Positions 4,902 to 52,068 of a stretch of 64,000 nucleotides of DNA are shown piece after piece. The stretch comes from Lacibacter luteus. GTDB taxonomy: Bacteria; Bacteroidota; Bacteroidia; Chitinophagales; Chitinophagaceae. The stretch spans positions 930,001 to 994,000 of the forward strand of contig NZ_SDHW01000001.1 in the NCBI RefSeq assembly GCF_004118265.1. Reading direction: 5' to 3'. The position numbers were made by a program, and so were the translations under genes. The notes beneath the pieces are model-generated. The model saw only the letters and a list, made by a program, of their open reading frames with translations. It did not search any database and was not told the DNA's origin. How positions within the stretch are numbered: the stretch's first letter is position 1; every line of letters starts with the position of its first letter.

Positions 4902-5795
4902 ATGAACTGGCAGGAACAATATCAACACTTACGGGAAGCACTAACTGTTGCACACGAACCGTCTGAAGCAGAAGCTATCGCCCGTTTAGTGACTGAACAT
5001 GTTGGCAAAAAGAATTTCCGAAGTTTAGAAGCTGCAGCAGTTACCGCAGAAGAAGAAGAAGAGATCAAGTCAGTTCTTCAACAACTGCTCAAGCATCGTC
5101 CGTTGCAATATGTATTGAACGAAGCCTGGTTTTACGGATTGAAGTTTGAAGTAAACGAAAGCGTTTTGATACCAAGACCGGAAACAGAAGAACTGGTTGA
5201 TTGGATCGTGAAAGAGGTACGAGGTAAGAAGTACGAAGTACGAACCGAAATGCCTGCGTACCTCGTACCTCGTACTTCGTACTTACGTCTTCTCGATATT
5301 GGTACCGGCAGCGGCTGCATTCCGATTTCTTTAAAAAAGAATTTGCCCGATGCTAAATTATCAGCCGTTGATGTTTGCAGCGAAGCTTTGCATACAGCAA
5401 CAACCAATGCGGTGAACAATGAAACAGAGATCAACTTTCATTTGCTCGATTTTTTAGATGAAAGCAAATGGAGCCTTCTCGACAAATACGATATCATCGT
5501 AAGTAATCCGCCGTATATTAAAAACACCGAAGCAACCACTATGAGTAAGCATGTGTTGGAGTTTGAACCGCACAAAGCATTGTTTGTTCCCGATGAAGAT
5601 GCATTGTTGTTCTACCGTAAGATTGCTGATTTTGCACTGCAGCATTTGCAACCGAACGGAGCCGTGTATGTGGAGATCAATCAGCAATTGGGAAAAGAAA
5701 CTGCAGCGCTGTTTCAGCAAAAAGGATTTACTGTTGAGTTAAGGAAAGATATGAGCGGCAATGAACGGATGATAAAAGCTGTTTATGGTTTTTAG
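4902..5795 (+). CDS. prmC: Release factor glutamine methyltransferase PrmC
   Basis: A 297-residue SAM-dependent methyltransferase that methylates the Gln of the GGQ motif in translation release factors. The N-terminal helical domain is followed by IPRPETEELVDW, LLDIGTGSGCIPISL (SAM-binding glycine motif) and VSNPPYI (the NPPY substrate-Gln motif). Between IPRPETEELVDWIVKE and LLDIGTGSG there is an extra stretch of about 23 residues encoded by an inverted GTACGAA repeat (5217-5286). The frame stays open, so the insert is tolerated between the N-terminal and catalytic domains. Divergent from ribD across 128 bases. Confidence 0.93.
   Translation: MNWQEQYQHLREALTVAHEPSEAEAIARLVTEHVGKKNFRSLEAAAVTAEEEEEIKSVLQQLLKHRPLQYVLNEAWFYGLKFEVNESVLIPRPETEELVDWIVKEVRGKKYEVRTEMPAYLVPRTSYLRLLDIGTGSGCIPISLKKNLPDAKLSAVDVCSEALHTATTNAVNNETEINFHLLDFLDESKWSLLDKYDIIVSNPPYIKNTEATTMSKHVLEFEPHKALFVPDEDALLFYRKIADFALQHLQPNGAVYVEINQQLGKETAALFQQKGFTVELRKDMSGNERMIKAVYGF
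5217..5286. repeat. Inverted GTACGAA-type repeat inside prmC, copy B
   Basis: The left arm (5217-5243) is built from GTACGAGGTA and GTACGAAGTACGA. The right arm (5259-5286) is TACCTCGTACCTCGTACTTC and related words, largely its reverse complement, with a 15-base centre. It is in frame with prmC and encodes residues between the N-terminal and SAM-binding domains. The same words occur at 2061-2091, 5961-5990 and 52040-52068. Confidence 0.8.
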
Positions 5796-5828
5796 TTTTT
5801 TGTTTATAGTTAGGCTGCTTCTGTTTAA

Positions 5829-5870
5829 TACTGAACTGCAGTACAAGTGTGCGACGCCAATGCTGTTGAT
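5829..5870 (+). repeat. 42-bp dispersed repeat, copy 1
   Basis: Shares the core GTGCGACGCCAATGC and flanking bases with 22008-22049 in the same orientation; most of the 42 positions agree by eye. It lies in the intergenic space after prmC. No ORF or strong hairpin explains it. Confidence 0.7.
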
Positions 5871-5924
5871 GCCTGTTCAATTGCTCAACAACAAAAAACA
5901 ATAAACCACAAACCATAAACAAAA

Positions 5925-5954
5925 AGCCCGTCAGATGAGAACGTCTGACGGGCT
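5925..5954 (-). terminator. Terminator after the exbB-exbD pair
   Basis: An 11-bp perfect stem, AGCCCGTCAGA / TCTGACGGGCT, with an 8-base loop. On the minus strand it is followed by a T-rich run (TTTTTGTTT), so it most likely ends the ExbB-ExbD transcript. Confidence 0.75.
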
Positions 5955-5960
5955 GTATTT

Positions 5961-5990
5961 CGTACCTCGTACTTCTAACTTCGTATTTAT
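5961..5990 (-). repeat. GTACGAA-type dispersed repeat, copy C
   Basis: Read on the minus strand: TAAATACGAAGTTAGAAG then TACGAGGTACG. It directly follows the TGA stop of exbD (5990-5992), in the same orientation as that gene, and precedes the terminator hairpin at 5925-5954. Confidence 0.75.
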
Positions 5991-6400
5991 CAAAGTCCTT
6001 TCTTATCTACATTCATCACCGCTTTTACACCTAAGCGATCGGCAGCACGGAGTACCGCAGCAAAACTTTCCAGTTTGCAATTACGATCGGCGTTTACAGC
6101 AATGGTTGGTTCTTCCCCATTGGCCCGTTTTGCATTGATGATTCTTGCCAATGCACTATCCATCATCAACGGATCAACAGGTTTTGCTTCTACATAAAAA
6201 CGGTTTAACGAATCGATTGTTACAGCAACAGATTGTTTGGCTGTTGTATTGCTCTTGGCTTTTGGCAACGATGCTTTGCGCACATTGGGATTAGCCAGTG
6301 TAGATACGATCAGGAAAAACATCAGCAGGATGAACAGGATATCGTTCAACGCATCTGTAAACACCTCACTCGATTCAGCTCTTTTCTTTCTTAAATTCAT
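5990..6400 (-). CDS. exbD: ExbD/TolR-type biopolymer transport protein
   Basis: A 136-residue protein with a short cytoplasmic N-terminus, one transmembrane helix (about residues 16-36, DILFILLMFFLIVSTL, with the conserved acidic residue just at its start) and a periplasmic domain. This is the ExbD/TolR layout. With ExbB it forms a proton-driven motor in the inner membrane that energises TonB or Tol functions. It follows the exbB-like gene by 11 bases. No tonB gene is visible next to it, so the energised partner is unknown. Confidence 0.85.
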   Translation of the reverse strand: MNLRKKRAESSEVFTDALNDILFILLMFFLIVSTLANPNVRKASLPKAKSNTTAKQSVAVTIDSLNRFYVEAKPVDPLMMDSALARIINAKRANGEEPTIAVNADRNCKLESFAAVLRAADRLGVKAVMNVDKKGL

Positions 6401-21966: not shown

Positions 21967-21998
21967 AAAAACGGTTCGCAATAATGCGAACCGTTTTT
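21967..21998 (+). terminator. Terminator after the CPBP/membrane-protein pair
   Basis: A 14-bp perfect stem AAAAACGGTTCGCA / TGCGAACCGTTTTT with a 4-base loop and flanking A and T runs. It can act on both strands. Confidence 0.8.
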
Positions 21999-22007
21999 TA
22001 TGTTGCT

Positions 22008-22049
22008 TATTGAACTTTTGTACAAGAGTGCGACGCCAATGCCGCTGAT
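22008..22049 (+). repeat. 42-bp dispersed repeat, copy 2
   Basis: Same orientation as copy 1 (5829-5870), sharing GTACAAG and GTGCGACGCCAATGC with few differences elsewhere. It lies just past a terminator in the spacer between convergent genes. Confidence 0.7.
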
Positions 22050-52039: not shown

Positions 52040-52068
52040 CGTACTTCTAGCTTCGTATTTCGTACTTA
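52040..52068 (-). repeat. GTACGAA-type dispersed repeat, copy D
   Basis: On the minus strand it reads AAGTACGAAATACGAAG then CTAGAAGTAC. It begins three bases after the TGA stop of the ABC permease gene (52071-52073), in the same orientation as that gene. Confidence 0.75.

Follow-up and report, generated by a model that had tools for sequence, protein, structure and literature searches.

The prmC gene of Lacibacter luteus (positions 4902–5795, + strand, of the 64 000-nt stretch analysed here, the window) contains an inverted run of heptamers within its coding sequence, and this raises the question of whether a mobile palindrome landed there once, in frame, or whether the site holds another kind of repeat. 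The best-known cases of repeats inserted in frame into housekeeping genes are those of Rickettsia and Wolbachia. The gene encodes a peptide chain release factor N(5)-glutamine methyltransferase of 297 residues, which scores 237.8 bits against TIGR03534 (cutoff 199.1). The insert (5217–5285) is in frame between IPRPETEEL and LLDIGTGSG, and the reading frame is open throughout, as a preliminary description of this DNA had proposed. It is composed of a left arm of four heptamers, GTACGAG, GTAAGAA, GTACGAA and GTACGAA (5217–5244, + strand), a 12-nt spacer read as CCGAAATGCCTG (5245–5256, + strand), and a right arm, CGTAC, CTCGTAC, CTCGTAC, TTCGTAC and TTA (5257–5285, − strand), which is an inverted run of heptamers of the left-arm type. 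The insert is a period-7 array whose unit is a degenerate heptamer (GTACGAR type), not a fixed palindrome.

The encoded peptide, VRGKKYEVRTEMPAYLVPRTSYLR, corresponds to residues 106–128 of PrmC. The 23 residues earlier taken as extra are all encoded by the insert, but the median linker length is 18 residues (132 distinct prmC genes) and this linker has 33, so that the net gain is ∼ 15 residues, not 23. In an AlphaFold2 model of PrmC (twelve sequences, mean pLDDT 84.9), residues 111–124, within the insert, have pLDDT values below 50, and the flanking helix (93–108) and strand (129–133) are kept; the insert is thus predicted to be an unstructured loop.

The two arms are complementary at 23 of 30 positions, whereas the best of 2000 random pairs drawn outside the insert reached 19 (the maximum is 24 if the insert is not excluded from the draw). 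As RNA, the window copy folds with −33 kcal/mol (z −4.33), a value equalled by none of 200 shuffles. Such a strong hairpin, and the location of intergenic arrays very close to gene edges, could be expected of a selected regulatory element, whose hairpin or heptamers would have a role in binding, pausing or termination at the level of mRNA or DNA and would be kept by prmC for control. However, the corresponding insert of Lacibacter cauensis has no hairpin (z +1.98; 197 of 200 shuffles fold equally well or better), the related locus L105 has a single arm, and most prmC genes carry no array, so we consider regulation highly improbable as the reason for the insert. A conserved RNA hairpin was rejected on the same comparison of z −4.33 for the window copy with z +1.98 for L. 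cauensis.

L. cauensis (L106) is the nearest named relative that we found (80% identity in prmC). The left arm is nearly identical in L105 and in L. cauensis, that is, in three separately sequenced genomes, and an assembly artefact was rejected on this ground. At this site the heptamers change from one close relative to the next: L105 has the single GTACGAR arm only, L. cauensis combines GTACGAR with a (CACTCAC)n run in place of the right arm, L107 and L108 carry GAAAGTG, and L109 and L110 carry GTACGAT with ACCATTC. Conservation does not extend to the palindrome, since L. cauensis shares only the left arm, its right arm being different and no hairpin forming. The left arm predates the genus split, and the right arm differs between L105 and L. 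cauensis. The refuting condition set in the preliminary description gave a mixed outcome: part of the residues is common to relatives without palindromy, yet further copies are numerous in the genome (see below). At this site, farther genera have GCGAGTA with AACTCAC, GAAAATC, AAATACG, AAGTCAA, GGTTACA together with its inverse, and further units; two complementary arms are also present in prmC of G013 (L070). Because other genera carry other heptamers here, the prmC linker is a recurrent site of arrays and not the scene of one landing event.

This recurrence was measured across the family. A prmC match was present in 144 of 147 family genomes, 126 of which were fetched; 141 prmC loci were read, and subtraction of four without a linker match and five duplicates left 132 distinct genes. 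A strong array, defined as a period-7 match of at least 17/21, occurs in the linker of 18 of the 132 genes and in other parts of the gene in three. The control lags 4, 5, 8, 10, 11 and 13 gave none in the 132 genes, in the linker or elsewhere, and lag 14 gave 12 in the linker and two elsewhere, as expected from a period-7 signal. Of the 18 linkers, ten are from the family draw (122 genes) and eight from 10 distinct extra loci, a biased set, found by similarity with one search peptide that touches the linker edge. In the 21 linkers of at least 22 residues, peaks stand at lags 7, 14 and 21 (0.43, 0.39 and 0.37; other lags 0.23–0.32). A strong array is absent from at least 108 of the 132 linkers, some long ones among them. 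Beyond the family, three Flavobacterium loci and L323, from another genome of the class, have arrays at the prmC linker. L323 is the sole linker with at least 17/21 among the 26 readable in a draw over the phylum (28 loci, two of them without a linker match and three repeating family genomes already counted). In G149 the prmC linker holds the only strong period-7 array within the 80 kb read. L323 has a second period-7 array in prmC, with the unit CTTTCAC, shortly 5′ of the NPPY motif. The prmC of G145 (L087) has a 53-residue, G+C-rich linker without a strong period-7 array, another type of insert at the same place.

The heptamers of the insert are widespread in the source genome. An exact two-unit pattern, GTACGARGTACGA, has 24 matches in 5.07 Mb and its reversed control has none; a three-unit pattern with up to three mismatches has 116 matches versus none for the reversed control, neighbouring registers being counted separately. 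Further copies, whose absence the preliminary description had named as refuting a mobile insertion, are thus numerous. In the window there are five period-7 arrays of at least 17/21 and none of periods 4, 5, 8, 10, 11 or 13; three of the five lie outside the mechanically called open reading frames, in 9% of the window. Tandem 7-nt units enriched between genes, the mark of heptameric simple sequence repeats, are seen both in these arrays and in the lag-7 signal. A control over 295 loci (L055–L349) gave 124 arrays of period 7, 14 of period 8 (in eight loci), one each of periods 11 and 13 and none of periods 5 and 10.

The loci examined contain 31 distinct GTACGAR arrays, a subset of those in the genome: 20 lie between genes and 11 inside an open frame. 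Seven genes named by NCBIfam or Pfam contain an array in frame (prmC, trmN6, pyrD, cysS, lnt, metH and lptE), and two further array-bearing frames (L013 and L033) are doubtful. The proposal that a genome-wide repeat is tolerated in frame, in prmC at a domain junction, is borne out by the 24 matches without a control match and by these seven genes. Within the window, a GTACGAR array on the − strand (5953–5989) directly follows the stop codon of the minus-strand gene at 5990–6400, and a diverged GTACGAA-type repeat (2061–2088, + strand) matches 52040–52067 in inverted orientation with 96% identity, the inverted repeat itself spanning 52040–52068 (− strand). Positions 5780–5921 hold a two-armed period-7 element of a GTTTATG-type heptamer, with no strand assigned, whose inverted 32-nt arms are 84% complementary; its left arm overlaps the prmC stop codon and its right arm is also called as a period-7 array. 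A 52-nt core is found at 5819–5870, between these inverted arms, and again at 21998–22049 (79% identity).

The intergenic arrays have a marked orientation. With gene edges taken from mechanical open reading frames, the 5′ one of the two ends of an intergenic GTACGAR array is closer to a gene in 19 of the 20 arrays from the source genome and in 15 of the 16 from L. cauensis (20 stretches covered, of which L317 has no array by that pattern); many intergenic loci are common to the two genomes. That an array always comes after a stop codon was rejected as a rule: in the source genome 13 of 20 begin over a same-strand stop or no more than 6 nt past it, but only four of 16 lie within 7 nt of a same-strand stop in L. 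cauensis, where 11 of 16 stand 7–42 nt from the start of an opposite-strand gene. The orientation fits arms of a two-armed element that face inward from gene edges. The complete two-armed form is present in prmC, in L015 and, with another heptamer, at 5780–5921 downstream of prmC.

Facing arms are what would be expected of genuine mobility, with a transposase moving a two-armed palindromic element whole (as RAYT does REPs), and the element landing in frame and then decaying to single or mismatched arms. The pairs of complementary arms in prmC of the window and of G013, in L015 and in the intergenic element, and the presence of one Y1 transposase gene (PF01797) in the source genome, would agree with it. 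However, the copies follow no fixed consensus, arms often stand singly, the two arms in L. cauensis are unlike and form no hairpin, and no period-7 array of at least 16/21 lies within 3.3 kb around the Y1 transposase gene; we regard transposition of a palindrome as unlikely. REPs are described as short palindromic repeats of 20–40 bp with a tagged consensus, located at gene edges and served by RAYT transposases (PMC3733652). The arrays share the gene-edge position with REPs as there described, but have no such consensus and no array near the one Y1 gene (PMC3733652). Indeed, the arrays form no fixed palindrome of 20–40 bp, and the locus around the PF01797 gene (L349) is devoid of period-7 arrays. 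At that locus (C21:35283–35624) the Y1 transposase gene has CCCTGGCCTTCAGGCCAGGG-like, REP-like palindromes beside it, for which no relation to the heptamers was seen.

Loops of other enzymes were read in the same way. The PyrD loop 5′ of GGNIGKNK reaches at least 17/21 in 10 of 29 genomes with a match, and its units include GTACGAA, CATCACT (seven exact copies in L198), AAATCGA, AATCGTC and GGCAATG; PyrD of G151 and G152 has a short loop and no array. In TrmN6, four of 29 loci reach at least 17/21 and the source genome's own copy scores 16; there the peptide AEEVRGKKYEVRS immediately precedes ILDIGAGTG (L023:1479–1520). For CysS, one of 30 rows (one row being a fragment) attains the threshold, and seven more, including the own copy, score 14–16. 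Thus the loops of pyrD, trmN6 and, more weakly, cysS behave like the prmC linker. The metH array adds no net length relative to the profile and is therefore not an insertion. TrmN6, CysS and MetH fall below or above different curated cutoffs, each family being the top one for its protein. The arrays in trmN6, pyrD, metH and cysS are common to the source genome and L. cauensis. In the lptE homologue (PF04390; L001:1405–1560, C11 near 110858) the two arms of one GTACGAR element encode the N-terminal region. The region encoded by these arms includes a hydrophobic stretch ending in LSSC, which resembles a lipoprotein signal peptide. PrmC and TrmN6, two different methyltransferases, have a nearly identical 12-residue repeat peptide 5′ of the SAM-binding motif. 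The pyrD of G100 (L204) has a second period-7 array at another loop, with the peptide LSQQSEVRSQK before IGAGGLSG.

Heptamers tend to be shared within genomes more than between them. Among fifteen genomes, GTACGAR matches number 24 in the source genome, 31 in G147, 24 in L. cauensis, nine in G068 and 0–2 in the eleven others; AAAGTCA has 46 matches in G016, 17 in G068 and 0–2 elsewhere; and the reversed controls of these and the following counts gave single matches in a few genomes. ACCATTC is spread over 11 of the fifteen and GAAAGTG is rare even in genomes whose prmC carries it, so not every heptamer is a genome-wide dialect. GAAAGTGGAAAGTG has five matches in the 15 genomes, three of which are prmC. 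For the heptamers of four genes, the mean distance is 1.97 within genomes (30 pairs) versus 2.87 between genomes (441 pairs), a figure that leaves out two unparsed cysS loci and the own cysS array, which is below the threshold of the test. This agreement was matched by none of 2000 label shuffles, which covered all genomes jointly, and the Lacibacter clade carries much of it; outside the clade the values are 2.36 (11 pairs) versus 2.95 (147 pairs).

These distances bear on a local origin, in which polymerase slippage would turn a tolerant linker into period-7 repeats whose heptamers then diverge by mutation and homogenization in place, without transfer between loci. Among long simple repeats, heptanucleotides are reported to be the most frequent type in most genomes, and a 7-nt slippage has been proposed (Mrazek et al., 2007, as cited in PMC4679880); the stepwise change of heptamers at the site in relatives (e.g. 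GTACGAR, GTACGAT) and the metH array, which lies over native length, would also suit such an origin. Drift in place does not lead one to expect GTACGAR in seven genes and many intergenic sites of the source genome and its sister species but nearly nowhere slightly farther out, nor the within-genome agreement of heptamers (1.97 versus 2.87), and we consider a purely local origin improbable.

The account that we lean towards, and hold to be somewhat probable, is that lineage-specific heptamer arrays are copied between loci, resized by slippage and survive in tolerant loops of genes. The prmC insert would be one copy of a class of short period-7 arrays for which each lineage has its own heptamers, usually as a single arm, or as one arm opposite an inverted one, at the edge of a gene. 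Copying and slippage are the steps that we infer, and the loop recurrence, the turnover of heptamers, the genome-wide copies, the open frame and the predicted loop are direct readings. New arrays may be seeded from other loci, with short homologies guiding template switching or gene conversion, and would then grow, shrink and be homogenized by slippage in 7-nt steps. Within a gene, an array would survive only where the loop is tolerant and the array as a whole neither shifts the frame nor introduces a stop codon. One such tolerant site would be the PrmC loop that joins the helix following IPRPETEEL to the initial strand of the methyltransferase domain, and for this reason it would be filled repeatedly with the heptamers of the lineage.

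The comparison with Rickettsia made in the preliminary description holds for the way the repeat works in frame inside genes, but not for a fixed palindromic family, the unit being a degenerate heptamer. RPE are described as repeats of 100–150 bp in named sequence families of obligate intracellular bacteria (PMC3767692, PMC10969869), and for RPE-4/6/7 relatives carry different repeat groups at one site, with a hot spot and a diverged common insert both discussed (PMC3767692). The arrays resemble RPE as so described, above all RPE-4/6/7, and the WPE of Wolbachia in being in frame in unrelated housekeeping genes, at solvent-exposed sites and with different repeats at an orthologous site (PMC3767692, PMC10969869). 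In-frame location in unrelated functional genes is seen here in the seven named genes, and a solvent-exposed position is indicated for one gene, PrmC, by the predicted low-confidence loop 111–124. Unlike RPE, the unit here is 7 nt, the insert ∼ 70 nt, the heptamers vary from genus to genus, and the host bacteria belong to the Bacteroidota and have genomes of ∼ 3–7 Mb. With a 7-nt unit, a ∼ 70-nt insert and genus-specific heptamers there is no family of 100–150 bp with its own consensus, and we therefore do not file the arrays as RPE.

The arrays belong, loosely, to the heptameric simple repeats. TAACTGA repeats are described from Beggiatoaceae, cyanobacteria and five Bacteroidetes, with one set of two inside purC near its end (PMC4679880), and GGGAATC repeats from Xanthomonas and Nostoc (PMC4692102). 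Tandem 7-nt units at many, mostly intergenic, loci are common to those repeats and ours; unlike those studies, each of which as described deals with one fixed heptamer, we find recurrence at enzyme loops and turnover of heptamers at an orthologous site (PMC4679880, PMC4692102). PARCEL are described as amphipathic repeat domains in intragenic tandem arrays, encoded in frame by palindromic DNA (PMC2996958); palindromic coding DNA in frame is common to PARCEL and the insert, but here it forms 7-nt arrays in enzyme loops (PMC2996958). A literature search, covering few subscription journals, found no paper on heptamer arrays in frame in genes of Bacteroidota.

More broadly, we tentatively propose, as a possibility a little short of an even chance, that Bacteroidota have coding-tolerant repeats that form a class by their period, not their sequence. 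The heptamer dialects of each lineage would be copied between sites inside and outside genes, with no dedicated transposase, and would re-colonize loops of PrmC, PyrD, TrmN6 and CysS, so that some linkers would be written by the dialect of the genome. The data suggest that spreading repeat DNA keeps rewriting harmless protein loops. Behaviour like that of the Rickettsia repeats is now seen in Bacteroidota with genomes of this size, at predictable sites and with natural replicates in many genera, and this makes the spread of heptamers between loci, and the conversion of repeat DNA into protein sequence, testable. Differences in linkers between orthologues in Bacteroidota should be read with caution, since they may be repeat DNA and not adaptation. 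Elsewhere in the window, positions 148–447 and 706–1005 are 300-nt direct copies with 70% identity, 558 nt apart.
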